Below, in pieces: positions 13,396-21,861 of a stretch of 45,376 nucleotides of DNA; within the stretch, counting starts at the first letter, position 1; each line of letters starts with the position of its first letter. Under the pieces are notes generated by a model. It was given only the letters and a program-made list of their open reading frames with translations, searched no databases and was not told the DNA's origin. The stretch comes from Candidatus Stahliibacteriota bacterium. GTDB taxonomy: Bacteria > Hydrothermota > UBA3072. The stretch is from the NCBI GenBank assembly GCA_030668705.1, contig DAOVFB010000002.1:1-45376 (forward strand), in the 5' to 3' direction. The translations under genes and the position numbers were made by a program.

Positions 13396-14643
13396 CTATA
13401 ACTGATGTACAAACAGTCCTGACCTTAACTTAGGTTCAAACCATGTGGATTTAGGAGGCATATTGAGGCCTTCGTCAGCAACCGACATCAATTCCTCCAT
13501 CGATGTTGGATAGAGAGCAAATGCCAGGGCGAACTTCCCTGAATCTATGAGGTACAGAAGGCCCTCTAATCCTTTAATCCCTCCAACAAAATCTATCCTA
13601 TCAGATTGTTTCGGCTTCTTTATCGAAAGTATTGGATTGAGGAGATTTGCCTGAAGAATAGAAGCATCGATAGAGCCCACAACATCGTCTTTTAGGAAAG
13701 TGCCTTCCCTGGCTATCAAATGAAACCATCGCCCGTCAAGATACATCCCAAAATGATGTTTAGCCTCTGGTTCATATCTTCCACTCACTTCTTCAATTAT
13801 AAAATCCTTGCCTATTCTATCAATAAATTCTTTCTTGTTAAGACCGTTTAAGTCCTTTACCACTCGATTATAAGCCATTATCTTTAGTTCGGTATGGGGG
13901 AATATTACCGAAAGAAAATAATTGTACTCCTCTCTTCCAGTGTGATTTGGGTTCCCTTTTCTTCTGACTTCCCTTACAAGACTGGCTGACTTTGACCGAT
14001 GATGACCATCAGCAATATAAAGTGATTCCGCTCTTTTTATTATATTTTGTATCTCTTCAATCTCTTTTACTTCATCTATCCTCCAGACAGTATGGAGTAC
14101 ACCACCATCGCCCTCAAATTTATATAGTGATTCCCTCTTTCGTATTCTTTCATAGATATCGTGCAATCCAGCCGTGCTATCATCATCACGGTAGGAAAGG
14201 AATACTGGACCAGTTTGTGCATTTAAGATATCTATGTGCCTTGTTCTATCTTCCTCTTTAGCTTTTCGAGTGAGTTCGTGCTTTTTTATCTGATCTTTAT
14301 CGTATTCATCCACAGATGCCAGACATACAAGTCCATTTTGAATATGGGCACCAATCCCTTGAGTATATAAATAGAAAGAGGGAGAATCCTCTCCTATGAG
14401 ATGCCCCTCGTTTATTAAAATGTTCAAGTTCTCTCTGCTTTTCTCATACACTCTATCATCATAGGTATCAATCCCATCCGGTAAATCAATCTCTGCCTTT
14501 ACAACATGCAAAAAACTAATAGGATTATCTTTTGTGAGTTCCTTCGCCTCAGTTCTCCCCAAAACATCGTAGGGAGGAGATGCTACCTTTGCTACCTCTT
14601 CCTTCTTTGGTCTTAGTGCTTTAAAAGGTCTTATCCTTGCCAT
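13396..14643 (-). CDS. DUF1015 family protein
   Basis: 415 residues matching DUF1015 throughout. The N-terminus ARIRPFKALRP and ASPPYDVLGRTEA is characteristic. Other signatures are NPISFLHV, YLYTQ, HELTRKAKEEDRTRH and the family motif YIADGHHRSKSA (usually IADGHHRYxTA). The biochemical role of the family is not established. The start codon overlaps the stop of the upstream zinc-ribbon gene as TAATG, so it is translated as the last gene of the SPFH/zinc-ribbon operon, which may or may not imply a shared function. Soluble; no signal peptide. Confidence 0.9.
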   Translation of the reverse strand: MARIRPFKALRPKKEEVAKVASPPYDVLGRTEAKELTKDNPISFLHVVKAEIDLPDGIDTYDDRVYEKSRENLNILINEGHLIGEDSPSFYLYTQGIGAHIQNGLVCLASVDEYDKDQIKKHELTRKAKEEDRTRHIDILNAQTGPVFLSYRDDDSTAGLHDIYERIRKRESLYKFEGDGGVLHTVWRIDEVKEIEEIQNIIKRAESLYIADGHHRSKSASLVREVRRKGNPNHTGREEYNYFLSVIFPHTELKIMAYNRVVKDLNGLNKKEFIDRIGKDFIIEEVSGRYEPEAKHHFGMYLDGRWFHLIAREGTFLKDDVVGSIDASILQANLLNPILSIKKPKQSDRIDFVGGIKGLEGLLYLIDSGKFALAFALYPTSMEELMSVADEGLNMPPKSTWFEPKLRSGLFVHQL

Positions 14644-15359
14644 TACTTGCCTCCTCTCTTTAGGTGTTTCTTTATCTCATCCCAGTTTTTTAATGCATCT
14701 TTAAAAATTCTGAATCCCTTTATTCCATCAACAAGTAAGCCTTCCTCTTCATAGAATGGTATACCTGCTATCCTATACCGGTGGAACACAAAGTCAATAT
14801 CCGCATCGAGAATATCGGCTCTTGTATGTGCTTGTATTGAAAGAAACATAACTCTTGTGAGTTCCTTTGCATCTTTGTAAGTATACTCTGCTCCTATCAT
14901 ATGCTTAGGAGTTGTCCCTATAAGTTTTGGCGGATCCACTGTAAATTGAAATCCTGGCTCATCCATCAATTGGTACCTGTTGGTAATGCCAAAAGCAGGC
15001 ACAAAGAAAATCATCTTCTTCTCAGCATTCCTATCTTTGAATAAACCGGTAAGCAACTTACTGAATCGGCGGTTTATGAGTAACTCCTCGGGGATATCCT
15101 GATAATTTAATGAATATTGTTCTTTTATGGAGATAGTCGTCTGAATCTGCCACATGGGAAGATAATATAACGGCCTTTTCCCAACTTCTTTTAGGGGCTT
15201 TGCATAAATGACATCCACTTTCTTAAACCTATCTCCTTCAAGTTGAAATCCCAGGCCGCAAACTGAACAAAAATATACGCAATCTTCTTCTTTACTATCA
15301 ATTTCTTCCCCACATTCCGGACACCGGAATGGGATTAGTTTAATATCATTCTGTCCCAT
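14643..15359 (-). CDS. Zinc-ribbon protein, third of three
   Basis: 238 residues. The N-terminal zinc ribbon has FRCPECG and YFCSVCG, two CxxC pairs about 17 residues apart. A PLYYLPMWQI segment follows, similar to the Y-x-P motifs in the two upstream proteins. No membrane segment is evident, unlike its two neighbours. GGGAG lies 7 bases before the ATG. The start overlaps the preceding gene by 14 bases and the stop overlaps DUF1015 by one base. I do not recognise the C-terminal domain. It is part of the SPFH/zinc-ribbon operon. Confidence 0.75.
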   Translation of the reverse strand: MGQNDIKLIPFRCPECGEEIDSKEEDCVYFCSVCGLGFQLEGDRFKKVDVIYAKPLKEVGKRPLYYLPMWQIQTTISIKEQYSLNYQDIPEELLINRRFSKLLTGLFKDRNAEKKMIFFVPAFGITNRYQLMDEPGFQFTVDPPKLIGTTPKHMIGAEYTYKDAKELTRVMFLSIQAHTRADILDADIDFVFHRYRIAGIPFYEEEGLLVDGIKGFRIFKDALKNWDEIKKHLKRGGK

Positions 15360-16305
15360 ATTGCAACTCCCATATAAGAAAGAGCACTGCCAGACCTACC
15401 AGAAGAGTCCATCCCCTACCTATAACCGAAGGAAGTACAGAAATTGTAACCCCGGCCAGACCAATAATAGCATACAGGGGATTTAACTTAATCACCCTTC
15501 TCTCTTTCTTGCGAACCACTGCTTCTTTAATCAATACTTCTCCGGAAACTGCATCAATGGAATATGTATAAGGAACACCATCCACTTCCAGACGTGAGAA
15601 ATATACAGGACAATAGTAAACGATGGCGCTCTTCTTGATTGCTCTGAGGTTCCATTTAAACTTATCCCATCCACGATATTCCCCGGTAATATTGCTTATC
15701 AGTGTATCTTCTCCCTGTTTCAAGTATTCCTTGATTGACAAAGGCAGATCGAATACATTACCGAACTGGTGCAAAAGGCTATCATCATATGGTTCGAATT
15801 TCTTCTCCTCGAGTTTTATCCTTTCTATCCCAAAACGATAAAAATTTGAGGGGTCTATTCTCATTTCCAGAATGCGTCTTACCTTCTTTTTTACTCTCTT
15901 CTCTCCTACAACTCGAGTTCCAATAGAAGAGGACCCACGGGGGTAAGTTCCACTGGAAAGCAAATTGGCCTGGCTTCCACCTGAACTATCGTAGTGATAA
16001 TCCTTTTTCACCTCTCCCTTCTTATACCCGTGTATCCATCCAATTATCTCTGCCCTGAGTTTTATCATGGGGATAAAAAGCAGGTCCAGATCGATAATCT
16101 TTGCATCCTTTCCAGCAATGCTTTTTATTATACCTCGTGGATTCTTTACAACAGGTCTTGAAAAGACCCTGGGCATTCCTAATCGCTCGGTTATGAGGAG
16201 TCTACTCCCACAGTAGTCGCATTGAACATTAGTATGCCCTTCCAGGGCATTTACCTCAGCCCCGCAATTGGGGCATACAAAGGAAATGACAACTCTTTCA
16301 GACAT
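15346..16305 (-). CDS. Zinc-ribbon membrane protein, second of three (YdjG-like)
   Basis: 319 residues from the ATG at 16305 (MSERVVISF); the frame can extend six codons to TTG 16323. An N-terminal zinc ribbon (FVCPNCG, QCDYCG) is followed by a soluble domain and the motif YSIDAVSGEVL, then two hydrophobic segments near the C-terminus (LYAIIGLAGVTISVLPSVIG and TLLVGLAVLFLIWEL). The design, zinc ribbon in the cytoplasm and membrane anchor at the end, resembles TFIIB-type zinc-ribbon proteins of the Bacillus YdjG kind. The start overlaps the upstream gene by 8 bases. Likely an envelope-associated partner of the SPFH protein; this is inference from context. Confidence 0.75.
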   Translation of the reverse strand: MSERVVISFVCPNCGAEVNALEGHTNVQCDYCGSRLLITERLGMPRVFSRPVVKNPRGIIKSIAGKDAKIIDLDLLFIPMIKLRAEIIGWIHGYKKGEVKKDYHYDSSGGSQANLLSSGTYPRGSSSIGTRVVGEKRVKKKVRRILEMRIDPSNFYRFGIERIKLEEKKFEPYDDSLLHQFGNVFDLPLSIKEYLKQGEDTLISNITGEYRGWDKFKWNLRAIKKSAIVYYCPVYFSRLEVDGVPYTYSIDAVSGEVLIKEAVVRKKERRVIKLNPLYAIIGLAGVTISVLPSVIGRGWTLLVGLAVLFLIWELQYGTE

Positions 16306-16960
16306 TTTCCCTCTGATATTCAAAGAAGTAAAAACCTACAGTAATTGAAATGGCTATAAAAATCTTAAGGATTGGATTAAAGGGTAAGAATAAGACAAGG
16401 AGTGAAACAATTAACCAGTTAAGAATAGCCAATGGATGTTTATTCATGTTTACTTCTCTCCTAGAGAGCAGGGTGTTAGAAAGAATATTTCCCGTTGCTG
16501 CATCTACATAGTAGATAGTATCACCATCTAATGCGGTAAAGAAAGGCAAATAGACTATGACTATTGAATCTGCCTTTTCAAGCCCGGCCATATCAAGCGC
16601 AACATCTACTGAATACTCAGGTTCCTCAACATCAAAGGTTAGCGGCACTCTATCCCCACGAGGAACATACCGGTCTATACCGTATAAATCAATTGCTTTT
16701 CCAGGGATAAAATGGGTTTCACCCTCTCTTACTATCCTATAGAATGGGAAATACTCCATCTCTACAGTTAATTTCTTCCCCGCAAAGTTCTTAAGGAGTT
16801 TTACGGCAACAGAGGAGTGGTGTGTGGGTTTTATAGATTCACGCGATAAGAATACACCCTTCCTGTAAACTAAATGAACACCGCAATATGGACATTTTCT
16901 GATGATACGGTCAGTTCCTACATCTATTAATGCATCACATTGTGGGCAATGAATCTTCAT
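16298..16960 (-). CDS. Zinc-ribbon membrane protein, first of three
   Basis: 220 residues. CxxC pairs at residues 5/8 and about 23/26 (HCPQCD, KCPYCG) form the N-terminal ribbon. The middle has EYFPFYRI, YLPFFTA and IYYVDAATGNIL, the last resembling the YSIDAVSGEVL motif of the next protein and the end of PepSY-type domains. Two transmembrane segments close the protein (about residues 175-215). It lies 63 bases after the SPFH gene. Together with the next two genes it forms a run of three zinc-ribbon proteins that look like diverged duplicates. Function unknown. Confidence 0.75.
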   Translation of the reverse strand: MKIHCPQCDALIDVGTDRIIRKCPYCGVHLVYRKGVFLSRESIKPTHHSSVAVKLLKNFAGKKLTVEMEYFPFYRIVREGETHFIPGKAIDLYGIDRYVPRGDRVPLTFDVEEPEYSVDVALDMAGLEKADSIVIVYLPFFTALDGDTIYYVDAATGNILSNTLLSRREVNMNKHPLAILNWLIVSLLVLFLPFNPILKIFIAISITVGFYFFEYQRENV

Positions 16961-17023
16961 CTACTACTTTTTAAGAAAAACCGCAGAATATTATGTTCCT
17001 GATATGACATTTCATAAAGAACT

Positions 17024-18067
17024 TTATAGCTTCTTTCCGCAGCCAGGACAGAATTTTGAATCAGGTGGAATTTCTTTTCCACATTCAGGGCAAAAACGGC
17101 TTCCCTCTAATTTTGCTCCACATTTAGGACAGAATTTTGCATCATCTGGAACTGGTTTCCCACACAGAGGACAACTCCGGCTGGGAGTTGCTCCAGAATC
17201 CTTTTCTTCTGTAGTTCTCTGTTCCCTACCTTTCTGAAGCATGCCCGGAATCATCGCACCCATACCAATACCTGCACCAACACCAACCCCCGTGCCTGCT
17301 GCTCCACCTTCCTGAGATGCAGCATCCCTGAGAGCCTTTGCAGCCTGAAACTGAGTAAACTTATCCAGGTCCCCTACAACCCCCATACCTGTCCTTTCAT
17401 CTATTATCTTTTGTACCTCAGGGGGAGGCGTTATTGATCTTATATAAAAATCCGTAAGATTAAGACCATATTTATCGAAATCTTCATCTATTCTTGATTT
17501 CGCACCGGCCGAGAGTTCATCATAATCCCTGGCAAGATCAAAGATGGTAGAATAAGTCTCACCAAGGAAATCAGTCAATCTTGAGATGATAACATTCTTA
17601 AAGAAGTTCTCAATCTCGTCTCTATCCGTGATGCTCTCTGTTCCAACAATCTTATTCACAAATAACTGGGGCTGTTCGACTCTATACGAATATATTCCAT
17701 TAGCTCTTATCCTTATCATCTTGAGCTCTTTATCTCTGAAGGGAACGGGTTCCTGTGTTCCCCATTTCGCATTGGTGAAGACCCTTTTACTAACGAAATA
17801 TACCTCGACCCGAAATGGGCTCTTCCCCCCAAAGACAGCACCCACTACTCTCTTGAGAACCGGAAGGTTGGCAGTTGTCAACGTATGTCTCCCTGGTCCA
17901 AAGGTATCAAGAGCCCTGCCATCCCGGAAGAACACTGCTGATTGGTTCTCTCTTACTATGAGCTGACTACCCAGGGAAGTTTCTGCTGAACCATCCTGTG
18001 GAATCCTATGAACTATCTCATTACCCTCATCATTTAAAAACTCGATAACTTCCAGAAATAGAGACAC
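17024..18067 (-). CDS. SPFH-domain protein with C-terminal double zinc ribbons (YdjI-like)
   Basis: 347 residues from a GTG at 18067, with a GAGGGGGT ribosome site just upstream. Residues about 20-230 form an SPFH/band-7-like domain of the YdjI type (LGSQLIVRENQSAVFFRDG, FGPGRHTLTTANLPVLK, ITPPPEVQKIIDERTGMG). A glycine/alanine-rich linker follows (about 265-285), then two zinc-ribbon units (CPLCGK/CPKCGA and CPECGK/CPGCGK). In Bacillus subtilis the related YdjI works with YdjG and YdjH in the PspA envelope-stress locus. Here no PspA gene is present. It starts one base after the stop of the helical protein, so the two are coupled. Probably organises a membrane-surface assembly. Confidence 0.85.
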   Translation of the reverse strand: MSLFLEVIEFLNDEGNEIVHRIPQDGSAETSLGSQLIVRENQSAVFFRDGRALDTFGPGRHTLTTANLPVLKRVVGAVFGGKSPFRVEVYFVSKRVFTNAKWGTQEPVPFRDKELKMIRIRANGIYSYRVEQPQLFVNKIVGTESITDRDEIENFFKNVIISRLTDFLGETYSTIFDLARDYDELSAGAKSRIDEDFDKYGLNLTDFYIRSITPPPEVQKIIDERTGMGVVGDLDKFTQFQAAKALRDAASQEGGAAGTGVGVGAGIGMGAMIPGMLQKGREQRTTEEKDSGATPSRSCPLCGKPVPDDAKFCPKCGAKLEGSRFCPECGKEIPPDSKFCPGCGKKL

Positions 18068-18068
18068 T

Positions 18069-18542
18069 TTAGACCCCCTCTATAATTTCAGAACGCTTCT
18101 TAAGGAGTTTTAATCCATTCTCAATATAATCGTTTACATCATCAAGCTCGGAATCAATATCAGTACAGGATATAAAATCTTTCACCCAATGGAGAAGTTC
18201 AAGGTCAACTTTATAAACAGAACGTAATGTATCCATGGAAATCTCCTTCTCGTCAAAGAACCCGCTATATCCATACTCAGCATATCTTATTCCATCCATT
18301 AACTTCTCCAATCTTTTCCTTATCTGTTCAATTCCGTCAAGTGGGGAGAGATCCCCGGACTTAGTTATAATTCTACCCTTTTCATTTAGAATATCCTGGA
18401 TATCATTTAACTTATGGAATATCCTCTCTCTCAATCTCTGGTCGTTCTCCCTTCTCTTTTCCTTTTTGTAGTATCCTCCGAATCCAGGGATTCTTTTTGC
18501 AATATCATCAACCCACTCACTAAGTGATTCCTCTAAAGACAT
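18069..18542 (-). CDS. 157-aa helical protein of the SPFH/zinc-ribbon operon
   Basis: 157 residues, charged and mostly helical, with no signal or membrane segment. The N-terminus IPGFGGYYKKEKRRENDQRL is the most distinctive feature. I have the impression that a GYxxKExRRxxDxxLR pattern recurs in proteins encoded beside SPFH/zinc-ribbon genes in other bacteria, but cannot verify this. A GGAG site precedes the ATG by a normal distance. It lies between DUF4870 and the SPFH gene, one base before the latter. Likely a cytoplasmic partner of the SPFH protein. Not a PspA homologue as far as I can see. Confidence 0.7.
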   Translation of the reverse strand: MSLEESLSEWVDDIAKRIPGFGGYYKKEKRRENDQRLRERIFHKLNDIQDILNEKGRIITKSGDLSPLDGIEQIRKRLEKLMDGIRYAEYGYSGFFDEKEISMDTLRSVYKVDLELLHWVKDFISCTDIDSELDDVNDYIENGLKLLKKRSEIIEGV

Positions 18543-18595
18543 AATTTACTCCTTTAAAGTTCGACTTATTTTCAATCCTTGCTAATATCCCTTCC

Positions 18596-18946
18596 TTAGA
18601 ATTTAAACTTCTCTGACAACATATATATTCCCAGAGGAGCTTCCCAGTATTTCCCTGTTAGGGATTGAATAATTCCAGCAATAGCAAGAACCACCAAAAT
18701 GATCCATCCAACAATCCAAATAAACCAACCTAAAATCGGGATATGACTTATTATCCATAGAGCAAACCAGCACAAAAACATTACCAATCCCTGCTTTGCG
18801 TGATGTTTACAGAATGAGTTATCCGGTTTCACCAGGAGTGGAATAAGCAATAGAATACCAAGATATGAAAGCCATGCGATACTTTTCCCTTCTTCTATAG
18901 CACTATCCGTATCAATAATCTCTTTCCCCTTTTTCACATCAGCCAT
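18596..18946 (-). CDS. DUF4870 small membrane protein (Tic20-like)
   Basis: 116 residues from the ATG at 18946, chosen because AAAGGAGG lies 6 bases upstream; the frame runs on to a TTG at 19006. The sequence matches DUF4870: GKSIAWLSYLGILLLIPLLV, a polar FCKHHAKQGLVMF loop (the family's HAKQ motif), then two more membrane segments ending with AGIIQSLTGK. About three transmembrane helices in all. First gene of the SPFH/zinc-ribbon operon. Many DUF4870 proteins lie beside envelope genes; no molecular function is established. Confidence 0.85.
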   Translation of the reverse strand: MADVKKGKEIIDTDSAIEEGKSIAWLSYLGILLLIPLLVKPDNSFCKHHAKQGLVMFLCWFALWIISHIPILGWFIWIVGWIILVVLAIAGIIQSLTGKYWEAPLGIYMLSEKFKF

Positions 18947-19258
18947 TTTAACCTCCTTTGCTATTTTTTCTTTAAAAAATTCTGGATTCAAGTAAAAAAT
19001 TCCCAAATCTTCCTATAGTATTATCCATATCCAACCCTGTTATTCACTGATTTCAATATAACAATTTCATAAAGAAAAGTCAAGAAAAATATTTACTCTT
19101 CATTAAGGAGATTTAAGTATCGGGCGTAAAGCTATAAATTGTGTAAATGTTTGCCTTTTAAAGTATGTAACTTTTTCGACTAAATATAAATACAGGCCAG
19201 TAAATTAAACGGTAGATAGCAAAAATTTAAGACATTAAAAAGAAGCAAACGGCAAGTT
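18947..19258. other. AT-rich intergenic region before the SPFH operon
   Basis: 312 bases between the DUF4870 start and the DUF1858 stop. Apart from the Shine-Dalgarno site and one possible promoter (19055-19084, minus strand) I see no gene, repeat or hairpin. Confidence 0.6.
19055..19084 (-). promoter_or_regulatory. Possible sigma-70 promoter for the SPFH/zinc-ribbon operon
   Basis: The minus strand has TTGACT (19084-19079), an 18-base spacer and TATATT (19060-19055). The implied leader of about 100 bases carries the AAAGGAGG site, unlike the leaderless promoters elsewhere in the window. Confidence 0.4.
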
Positions 19259-19467: not shown

Positions 19468-20736
19468 TCAATATCCTGGCCCCGAAATTTTACTTCTGTC
19501 TTCGGGAAGGATAAGGCCTTCCCAGTTTGGTTCTGTGGGTTCTGCATCAATGCTGGAGTATATTATATCGTACTCACCTGACATATCCCTATCCATAAAA
19601 ATGAACCATTCCCCAGTGTCAAAATAGTGCCAGATGATATAAGGATCGACCTCTAGTTCAGAGGTTCTCCTTATTATATCATCAGGGGGGCCATATTTTA
19701 TATAGATCCTTCCCCTATCGGTAAACCGTCCTTCCTTTCCCCTTTTTTCGGTAGAAAAGTTTTGATCTGAATTTTTCACTCTCGTAACAAAGTCGATTAA
19801 TGCTTCATTCTCTCTTGTATCTGGATCTGGGTCCCTTCTACTCCAGAATTTAAGGAGGAACAATTTCTTTCCTGGAAGGGTAAGGGAATTTAACTCCCTC
19901 ACCTCCCTTGAACTCGCAATATAATTTATGAAGGAAGCATATTCCAGAATAGAATCAGGAATAGAAAAAGTTGCTTTTCTTTTGATTTCTTTAATAGAAA
20001 AGCGCTTACTGGACATCGCCACATGCAAATCACCACGCGCTATTAGTTTTAGTGTATATGTTCCCGGAGAATAGCCCAAGACATTTGCTATCATTGGTAT
20101 AACAATCATGTCACCTGCAGTTTCGTAATGACTATTAAATACTGTGTCTATCTCATCTCCCCTACCTGTGATGATATATGTAATCAAAACAGAATCTTCC
20201 TTTAAACCATAAAGTTCGCAATAACTCGCAAGTAGATACCTATTTTTACTGAACGTTCTCCTCGGGAAAGGAATCAGCTTATAACCATTCTTTACAAAGC
20301 TGTTTTCCTCAGTTGTCGGTAGCAGAGTATGAGACACCTGAATATCACTAAATTGGAATTTGTCACCCCAATCTCGAGAAACAATTGTGGTTTCAGCCCA
20401 GAATGGCTCTCCTTTATTGTTTTCTATCTCTAATCTAATATTATATCTTTTTTTCGAACCGAGCACAACAAGCCGAACATCAGAGAATTCTAACTCCTCA
20501 TCCGGGTTGGAAACATTAACGGTTTTATGAAACGTCTCACTGAATGTTTCTTTTGTAGCTTTATCAGTAATTCGAAGAATAACGGGAAATTCAGCAGTGA
20601 ATTTTCCGCCTGCCTCATTAAACTTTAATCCTTTAGTGGGCATTGAGTAGTATATCTCACAGTACGTTTCCTCCGGAGACAGGGAAAATTGGGCTATATC
20701 AAGATTTATCGTTAAACTTAACAATACAAGTACCAT
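19468..20736 (-). CDS. GWxTD-domain exported protein (second of pair)
   Basis: 422 residues. An N-terminal hydrophobic run (VLVLLSLTINL) suggests export. The C-terminal third is a GWxTD domain: REVRELNSLTLPGKKLFLLKFW followed by RRDPDPDTRENE, then FTDRGRIYIKYGPPDDI and IIWHYF. The name-giving motif is changed from GWxTD to GRFTD. The middle is beta-rich. It abuts its upstream paralogue with no gap (TAG directly followed by ATG). GWxTD proteins are typical of the Bacteroidetes/Fibrobacteres side of the bacteria and have no established function. Confidence 0.85.
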   Translation of the reverse strand: MVLVLLSLTINLDIAQFSLSPEETYCEIYYSMPTKGLKFNEAGGKFTAEFPVILRITDKATKETFSETFHKTVNVSNPDEELEFSDVRLVVLGSKKRYNIRLEIENNKGEPFWAETTIVSRDWGDKFQFSDIQVSHTLLPTTEENSFVKNGYKLIPFPRRTFSKNRYLLASYCELYGLKEDSVLITYIITGRGDEIDTVFNSHYETAGDMIVIPMIANVLGYSPGTYTLKLIARGDLHVAMSSKRFSIKEIKRKATFSIPDSILEYASFINYIASSREVRELNSLTLPGKKLFLLKFWSRRDPDPDTRENEALIDFVTRVKNSDQNFSTEKRGKEGRFTDRGRIYIKYGPPDDIIRRTSELEVDPYIIWHYFDTGEWFIFMDRDMSGEYDIIYSSIDAEPTEPNWEGLILPEDRSKISGPGY

Positions 20737-21861
20737 CTAAAAACCTCTCGGTGGGTTTATTAGTTTATATTCTCCAAGATTATATTGTTCGACAAAAACC
20801 AATCGGTAATCCTTAATATAATAGTACCATATCTCATATGCTTTACCCTCCATCTCAAAAGGATGGCGCTCAACGTAATCGGGAGGACCAAGAAGAATGT
20901 AAGCCTTACCCCTATCGCTCTTCCACCCTTCAGTAAGTCCCGTGGAAAAATGCTCCTGTACATAATCTATCTTTCTAAAATATTCTTCCTTGAATTCATT
21001 GATTTCATCACCACTGGTGGGATCACGCTTTCTCCAGAATTCCTGCCAGAGTTCCTTCCTTTCTTCGACCTTAGCTTTAAGGAGTTCGTCCATTTCCTTT
21101 GTTGTTGCTATATATGTAAGCTCTCTGACCCTTTTGAAAAACATTTTTGATTGGAAAAATGGTTCTCGTATTTCGAAATCCATGGACCTTTCTCGGATTT
21201 CCCTGCCATTAGTACCTTTCAGTTGCACCACCAATTTATACGTATTTTCAGGGAATTGATTTGCCCCTAAATTTATATTGATTAAATACCTCTTACTACC
21301 TTCAAGCAATGTATCAGTCTTGGAATATATACCCCCTTTGCTGCTCCTGTAGTAATAAGATAATTGCCCTCCAACTTTCCCCTTATCAAATACTATAATT
21401 TTGACCCTTACTGTGTCCTTGGTACTGATGATATGTGAAGGGTCAGAAAACCATTGTATTGAACCAATATCCAGCGGCTCTATCTCCGGAATCTCAATAT
21501 CCTCCTCCCAACTCCAGCGTCTGTTGGATTGGAGATCCCAGATATTTAAAATTACCTTATAATCACCATTCCTAAGTTCTTCCTTAAGTGTCCCAGCAGA
21601 ACTCTTATTGGGAGAAATGGTTTCCAAATAGTCCTTTACCACTATTTTCTCTTTGTTACTCATTCCTCCAATTTGATGTTTCCCTTTCTTAACAACAAGG
21701 ACTGAGATGTACCTTGCCTCGTAGAGAGTGTCTTTTTTATAAAAGGTAACATCAGAATACGGAATCTTATAATGAGCAATTACGTAGGGTATTAGATTCG
21801 TATCTCTCTCTACTTGAAAATCAGTATTTATTGCACCAGAAAGAAAGAAAATAAACCACAT
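20737..21861 (-). CDS. GWxTD-domain exported protein (first of pair)
   Basis: 374 residues with a hydrophobic start (MWFIFFLSGA). The C-terminal GWxTD domain reads MDELLKAKVEERKELWQEFW, RKRDPTSGDEINEFKEEYF, then TEGWKSDRGKAYILLGPPDYV and YEIWYYY. The motif is GWKSD instead of GWxTD. The beta-rich N-terminal half resembles that of the next gene, so the two are probably ancient duplicates. The operon continues with the second GWxTD gene and DUF1858. A leaderless promoter lies just upstream, partly inside the end of pilR. Function unknown. Confidence 0.85.
   Translation of the reverse strand: MWFIFFLSGAINTDFQVERDTNLIPYVIAHYKIPYSDVTFYKKDTLYEARYISVLVVKKGKHQIGGMSNKEKIVVKDYLETISPNKSSAGTLKEELRNGDYKVILNIWDLQSNRRWSWEEDIEIPEIEPLDIGSIQWFSDPSHIISTKDTVRVKIIVFDKGKVGGQLSYYYRSSKGGIYSKTDTLLEGSKRYLININLGANQFPENTYKLVVQLKGTNGREIRERSMDFEIREPFFQSKMFFKRVRELTYIATTKEMDELLKAKVEERKELWQEFWRKRDPTSGDEINEFKEEYFRKIDYVQEHFSTGLTEGWKSDRGKAYILLGPPDYVERHPFEMEGKAYEIWYYYIKDYRLVFVEQYNLGEYKLINPPRGF

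Follow-up and report, generated by a model that had tools for sequence, protein, structure and literature searches.

H157, a small helical protein conserved in bacteria and archaea, is encoded beside a zinc-ribbon SPFH protein

The window analyzed here, a stretch of 45,376 nucleotides (contig DAOVFB010000002.1, positions 1 to 45,376) from Candidatus Stahliibacteriota bacterium, belongs to a candidate division WOR-3 genome that is 93% complete; its relatives in our named genome collection are mostly WOR-3 as well. On the minus strand, between positions 13396 and 18946, seven co-directional open reading frames (ORFs) were all confirmed, in the 5' to 3' order DUF4870, H157, SPFH, Z220, Z325, Z238, DUF1015. 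Our subject is the pair formed by H157, a protein of 157 amino acids, and the SPFH protein encoded directly downstream of it. The features of the locus are:

18069..18542, minus strand: H157, 157 amino acids, predicted all-helical and cytoplasmic, a near-obligate partner of SPFH (no Pfam or NCBIfam match; alignment of relatives, AlphaFold2 (AF2) model)
17024..18067, minus strand: SPFH protein (Band_7_1), 347 amino acids, GTG start, no transmembrane segment (PF13421, E 1e-62)
17027..17179, minus strand: two C-terminal zinc ribbons of the SPFH protein, residues 297-347 (PF12773 DZR, 1.2e-13; PF13240, twice)
16298..16960, minus strand: Z220, a YdjG-like protein with an N-terminal zinc ribbon, a weak PepSY/YpeB-like middle and a C-terminal hydrophobic hairpin (AF2 model, structural comparison, profile match)
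15346..16305, minus strand: Z325, an apparently paralogous zinc-ribbon protein with a C-terminal hydrophobic segment (alignment, hydropathy)
14643..15359, minus strand: Z238, an apparently paralogous soluble zinc-ribbon protein (alignment; no transmembrane segment)
18596..18946, minus strand: DUF4870 membrane protein with three hydrophobic segments, a variable neighbor (PF09685, 9.4e-06)
13396..14643, minus strand: DUF1015 protein, a variable neighbor probably outside the module (PF06245, E 1.2e-107)
19055..19083, minus strand: promoter-like site TTGACT-17-TATATT upstream of DUF4870 (count in the region at chance level)

Two junctions are loose, DUF4870 and H157 being separated by 53 base pairs (bp) and SPFH and Z220 by 63 bp. 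Between H157 and SPFH there is a single bp, and the remaining genes overlap: Z325 with Z220 by 8 bp (counted from an ATG start), Z238 with Z325 by 14 bp and DUF1015 with Z238 by 1 bp. The original prediction had described all seven as tightly packed and coupled, citing overlaps of 1-14 bases and a one-base gap; those figures stand, but the gaps of 53 and 63 bp had gone unmentioned.

Comparison with relatives showed that conservation does not extend to the seven genes as a unit; the core of the locus consists of SPFH and, immediately upstream, H157. The order H157-SPFH-Z220-Z325-Z238 recurs among further genera of the same family and in G009, a member of the class, and a member of the order (G006), whose contig begins within SPFH, carries SPFH-Z220-Z325-Z238-DUF1015. 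All seven genes are present in G003. Among the relatives examined, DUF1015 adjoins the set only in G003, G006 and G007 and not in G001, G002, G005 or G009; DUF4870 adjoins it in G001, G003 and G005 and not in G002 or G009. G001 lacks H157, and there DUF4870 lies immediately upstream of SPFH. In WOR-3 families further removed, only H157-SPFH is retained, followed by unrelated genes. Outside the class the pair is conserved broadly and the three-zinc-ribbon set in two Acidobacteriota, and neither DUF1015 nor DUF4870, which are confined to near relatives, recurs beside H157 in other phyla. The original prediction, which had taken the seven genes as one system, thus fails for DUF1015 and DUF4870, but a conserved neighborhood does extend far beyond close relatives, most broadly for H157-SPFH. 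In a member of the window's own family (L132, genome G004), a broken H157 remnant (residues 1-42, with an internal stop) persists and the SPFH gene is also missing, which suggests that both partners were lost together.

Relatives of H157 were collected by scanning genome contigs with a degenerate pattern, which found 142; the best 80 were used as named loci. These 80 come from WOR-3/TA06, Zipacnadia/Armatimonadetes/WS1, Acidobacteriota, Planctomycetota, Chloroflexota and Coatesbacteria among bacteria, and from Bathyarchaeota and Nitrososphaeria among archaea. An SPFH gene lies near H157 in 66 of the 80 loci and is the immediate next gene in 59, with a spacing that is mostly between -17 and about +90 bp. 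Two cultured bacteria, Levilinea saccharolytica and Thermanaerothrix daxensis, carry adjacent pairs. Most of the loci with no SPFH gene nearby either reach the end of their contig or belong to Anaerolineales whose H157 and SPFH genes are unlinked. In some of the latter (L092, L094, L104, L108, L110, L112, L117, L118 and L120), a CoxM/xanthine-dehydrogenase-like gene for binding flavin adenine dinucleotide, not SPFH, adjoins H157. No match to H157 was found on plasmids.

The two genes also occur together across whole genomes. In WOR-3, H157 is present in 11 of the 13 genomes with a strong SPFH match, one of the two exceptions being a contig that begins within SPFH. Among 201 Chloroflexota genomes, all 28 with H157 have a strong Band_7_1 match, though the two genes are not adjacent in 13 of them, and four genomes have Band_7_1 only. 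Of 151 Bathyarchaeia genomes, 76 carry both genes, 72 neither, one H157 only and two SPFH only; in the H157-only genome (G445), a divergent SPFH gene under the Band_7_1 threshold adjoins H157, and in one of the SPFH-only genomes (G464), SPFH sits at a contig edge. One Bathyarchaeia genome (L090, G176) carries two complete H157-SPFH pairs. Band_7_1 is found in 92 of 199 Acidobacteriota genomes and falls into two score groups, with H157 in 31 of the 35 lower-scoring genomes and in none of the 57 higher-scoring ones; this division was set by eye at a score gap (E 1.2e-75 to 6.5e-73) after both tables had been viewed, and its p-value is only indicative. Four Acidobacteriota genomes have H157 and no SPFH: in one (G627) the contig edge cuts the locus off, and in the other three H157 is divergent. 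Across 64 H157/SPFH pairs, the mirror-tree correlation was 0.61 against a permutation maximum of 0.15, a value that, like the Fisher tests, ignores shared ancestry. The better arguments for the pairing are the retention of both genes where they are unlinked, the partition by SPFH subfamily and the spread over phyla. Taken together, adjacency, near-obligate co-presence, correlated trees and the tracking of one SPFH subfamily make the H157-SPFH pairing well supported. The original prediction had not named the pair as the core, although the check it proposed, co-occurrence of the 157-residue protein with SPFH, pointed that way and was borne out.

H157 is covered by no Pfam family. In an alignment of 71 members from bacteria and archaea, ten residues are invariant: R31, R38, G91, Y92, G94, F95, F96, L106, D113 and R150 (numbered as in the window protein). 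Its only named relative is NF047596, an equivalog restricted to Leptospira: the window protein itself has no match to it, and 70 of the 71 members reach E values under 0.01, the best being 3.2e-19. Where bit scores were examined, members reached 23-67 bits, the cut-off being 210. These profile matches support a distant kinship between H157 and the putative Leptospira relative LIMLP_15305, of which the literature holds one incidental mention and for which we found no function. A search of WOR-3 genomes with NF047596 gave no match, but the control genomes were silent too, making the result uninformative. The AF2 model of H157 (predicted local distance difference test score, pLDDT, of 87) is a helical bundle of five helices, in which the conserved residues form two clusters, one where the long helix begins and one in the loop joining helices 3 and 4. 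By sequence, the solved structures that H157 matches are mainly designed coiled coils. In the structural search PspA was not among the best rows and the ESCRT-III protein CdvB had a Foldseek probability of 0.25, which is no evidence either way.

The SPFH protein is a clear member of Band_7_1 (211.9 bits to PF13421, gathering cut-off 24 bits), with CxxC motifs at residues 299, 313, 326 and 340 and a weak match to HflK. The H157-free Band_7_1 genes that we examined, in Acidobacteriota (L196, L198, L201, L206) and on Paracoccus, Vibrio and Enterococcus plasmids, mostly lie beside a double-ribbon YdjG-like protein, accompanied in Enterococcus by TPM. We built an SPFH tree on which H157-free Band_7_1 proteins other than B. 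subtilis YdjI were placed. Eleven H157-free genes formed one clade, with H157-linked archaeal and bacterial sequences on both sides; a few H157-free genes grouped with the H157-linked ones, and the position of the root is uncertain. The description of the window protein as YdjI-like holds at the level of the Pfam family, but within Acidobacteriota the H157-linked subfamily stands apart from the one paired with YdjG-like proteins.

PspA, the partner of YdjI, was absent as originally predicted: the best PF04012 hit in the window genome reached 16.2 bits against a cut-off of 33.9. At E 1e-5, no PspA was found in 14 of 14 WOR-3 relatives or in 29 of 46 further genomes with H157, a PspA_IM30 match occurring somewhere in 17 of the 60 genomes tested, and no pspA gene lay in any of the 80 H157 neighborhoods. 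TPM proteins of the YdjH type (PF04536) were likewise missing from the window genome and its pair-bearing relatives, with matches in 0 of 13 genomes. In both profile searches, control genomes gave matches. The original prediction had named two observations that would undo it, a neighborhood confined to close relatives and a pspA gene in the genome tied to this operon by regulation; both were sought and neither was seen.

The tripling of the zinc-ribbon part was also correctly predicted. Z220, Z325 and Z238 each contain a CxxC...CxxC pair, with only sub-threshold Pfam ribbon matches, and share an N-terminal ribbon and motifs; Z325 and Z238 are 15-21% identical to Z220, and the three look like paralogues by sequence. 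Hydropathy bore out the claim that two of them are membrane-anchored, the C-termini of Z220 and Z325 being hydrophobic and that of Z238 not. A TTG start at 16323 gives Z325 its 325 amino acids, with an ATG alternative at 16305, and its NCBIfam match to a ribbon of the RNA polymerase subunit P type (6.4e-06) is below cut-off. Compared with a YdjG-like protein, Z220 matched at 96% probability over 76 columns, covering the ribbon and the following segment, and the matches of Z325 and Z238 were limited to the ribbon. The AF2 model of Z220 (pLDDT 85.6) comprises a ribbon, an alpha/beta domain and a C-terminal helical hairpin. A fold search with the middle domain gave no clear match, only weak PepSY/YpeB and triphosphate-tunnel rows (YpmB 2gu3, Z 4.6 over 55 residues; YpeB 5boi, Z 3.8); the profile match to PepSY had E 0.072. 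The predicted model agrees with what has been published on YdjG, a protein with zinc ribbons and a domain related to YpeB (PMC11237479).

More widely, ORFs with paired CxxC motifs are enriched beside the H157-SPFH pair (30/181 near versus 3/243 far), a few of them being ordinary zinc enzymes. In Bathyarchaeia such an ORF lies immediately upstream of H157, and Holophagae and Thermoanaerobaculia (L082, L075) have a three-ribbon set as in the window. In Chloroflexota, where a ribbon protein accompanies DUF2207 in an Anaerolineae locus, two loci (L111:1-1944, L210:4251-6923) encode a DUF2207 membrane protein with a glycine-rich tail and a zinc-ribbon protein beside SPFH; H157 is present in L111 and missing in L210. 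In Blastocatellia (L063:7558-8730, L065:7554-8744), a zinc-ribbon-Toastrack (DUF4097) protein is encoded in the space that separates H157 from SPFH; Psp-type systems are known to have Toastrack among their partner domains (PMC11237479).

Around the set, two adjoining genes on the same strand lie upstream (19468-21861); a GWxTD domain was confirmed in 19468-20736, and 20737-21861 looks alike. Promoter-like sites in the region numbered 23, against 20.8 expected from shuffled sequence. The DUF4870 match is barely above cut-off, no paper in the library searched mentions DUF1015 together with serine kinases, and a PADLOC search for a defense role gave nothing past weak ribbon matches.

We propose that the two-gene H157-SPFH module, in several bacterial phyla and in archaea, is the core of a PspA-independent membrane scaffold with zinc-ribbon anchors, a reading to which we assign a probability of roughly 60%. 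The soluble, zinc-ribbon-tailed SPFH protein would form an oligomer, and H157 would bind it as a dedicated cytoplasmic helical subunit or adaptor. The three YdjG-like proteins, two of which end in predicted membrane hairpins, would hold the assembly to the cytoplasmic membrane on its inner side; by analogy with the dependence of YdjI on YdjG/YdjH, the anchors of the SPFH oligomer would be Z220 and Z325. The result would be a membrane-surface scaffold like that of B. subtilis YdjI-YdjGH, with H157 in the place of PspA and without a TPM protein, and with DUF4870 and DUF1015 as loosely attached neighbors. That H157 is the effector replacing PspA is a guess with which the data agree but which they do not demonstrate.

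Several observations weigh against this proposal. Binding, oligomerization and zinc content are predictions, as are the zinc dependence and the scaffold role suggested originally, and the statistics for the pairing disregard shared ancestry. Against the PDB, the H157 fold resembled only generic helical bundles (IncA, Z 12.7; a designed bundle, Z 12.1), below the level that is meaningful for helical proteins. As a candidate amphipathic membrane-binding protein H157 was rejected: its moments are ordinary, and its N-terminal helix is mildly amphipathic but not distinct. Three Acidobacteriota loci (L212, L213 and L214, in G550, G577 and G590) carry a divergent H157 near secA and beside a stand-alone double zinc ribbon of 67-77 amino acids, without SPFH; they look like a reduced form that keeps only the ribbon tail. 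Finally, outside the window's class only two Acidobacteriota have the three-protein anchor set, and since most pairs lack it, the tether must differ elsewhere.

The zinc-ribbon SPFH assembly might instead handle proteins or nucleic acids, for example as a protease- or ribosome-associated regulator like HflK/C-FtsH with H157 as client adaptor. Several ribbons resemble the RNA polymerase subunit P type and SPFH matches HflK weakly, but two of the three zinc-ribbon partners have C-terminal membrane segments, no protease gene recurs beside the pair and the closest relative that has been studied acts in membrane stress (PMC8581546), and we consider this unlikely. An ordinary Psp-type system, its PspA or another ESCRT-III protein encoded elsewhere or too divergent to recognize and H157 a mere accessory, would agree with the partnership of YdjI and PspA (PMC8581546) and with the PspA_IM30 matches in a minority of genomes. 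The control-backed absence of PspA from all the WOR-3 relatives, from most other genomes and from every H157 neighborhood makes it quite improbable, as does the comparison of H157 with a PspA alignment from 12 genomes carrying the pair: hhalign gave a probability of 0.5% and hmmsearch no matches, and H157 was rejected as a divergent PspA.

A single seven-gene envelope system that includes DUF4870 and DUF1015 could appeal to the shared strand, the short spacing and the intact set in G003; given how both flanking genes come and go, we think it very unlikely. What is best supported differs in scope from a seven-gene operon: a pair spanning two domains of life, together with three YdjG-like proteins and without PspA. 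The least probable alternative holds that H157 and SPFH are merely co-inherited neighbors in a few lineages with no functional coupling. Our sample is indeed dominated by some clades (Anaerolineales, Bathyarchaeia) and our statistics ignore phylogeny, but the genes are adjacent in several bacterial phyla and in archaea, co-present though unlinked in 13 Chloroflexota genomes, partitioned by SPFH subfamily within Acidobacteriota and decayed together in G004.

SPFH proteins organize membranes in all domains of life, and to our knowledge most prokaryotic ones have no known partner. H157, small, strongly conserved, without a Pfam entry and distributed from WOR-3 to Bathyarchaeia, is a concrete candidate partner for one SPFH subfamily, and together the two appear to make up an undescribed module of two parts. 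We regard it as an even bet that H157 is a dedicated, near-obligate subunit of an undescribed bacterial and archaeal SPFH complex, a membrane scaffold that runs parallel to, and is mutually exclusive with, YdjI-PspA-YdjGH while sharing its SPFH core. If true, this zinc-ribbon SPFH subfamily uses H157 where the YdjI lineage uses PspA and YdjGH.

Among known systems, the SPFH zinc-ribbon loci linked to ESCRT and adaptin in methanogens resemble the archaeal pairs in tying a zinc-ribbon SPFH protein to membrane remodeling (PMC10936438). Unlike in those loci, no ESCRT-III or adaptin gene was recognized beside the archaeal H157-SPFH pairs examined, for which no dedicated profiles were run. SPFH/flotillin operons with a YqiJ/YuaF (NfeD-type) membrane partner are alike in having a dedicated small partner gene (PMC11237479); here, however, the partner is a soluble helical protein that matches no described family, and the SPFH protein carries zinc ribbons and lacks a membrane segment. 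The locus is most likely a PspA-independent relative of the YdjI-YdjG module. The B. subtilis pspA-ydjGHI operon encodes the SPFH protein YdjI, the zinc-ribbon membrane protein YdjG, the TPM membrane protein YdjH and PspA; YdjI requires YdjG/YdjH for its membrane location and recruits PspA (PMC8581546). In both systems, the gene for a soluble Band_7_1 SPFH protein that ends in zinc ribbons adjoins genes for membrane proteins that carry zinc ribbons themselves (PMC8581546, PMC11237479). Unlike pspA-ydjGHI, the window genome lacks PspA and TPM genes, three single-ribbon YdjG-like proteins stand in place of the single double-ribbon protein of ydjG, and the SPFH subfamily differs from the Acidobacteriota subfamilies paired with YdjG-like proteins. 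The window also has an extra partner, H157: compared with YdjI-PspA, the SPFH scaffold is retained, apparently with a different effector.

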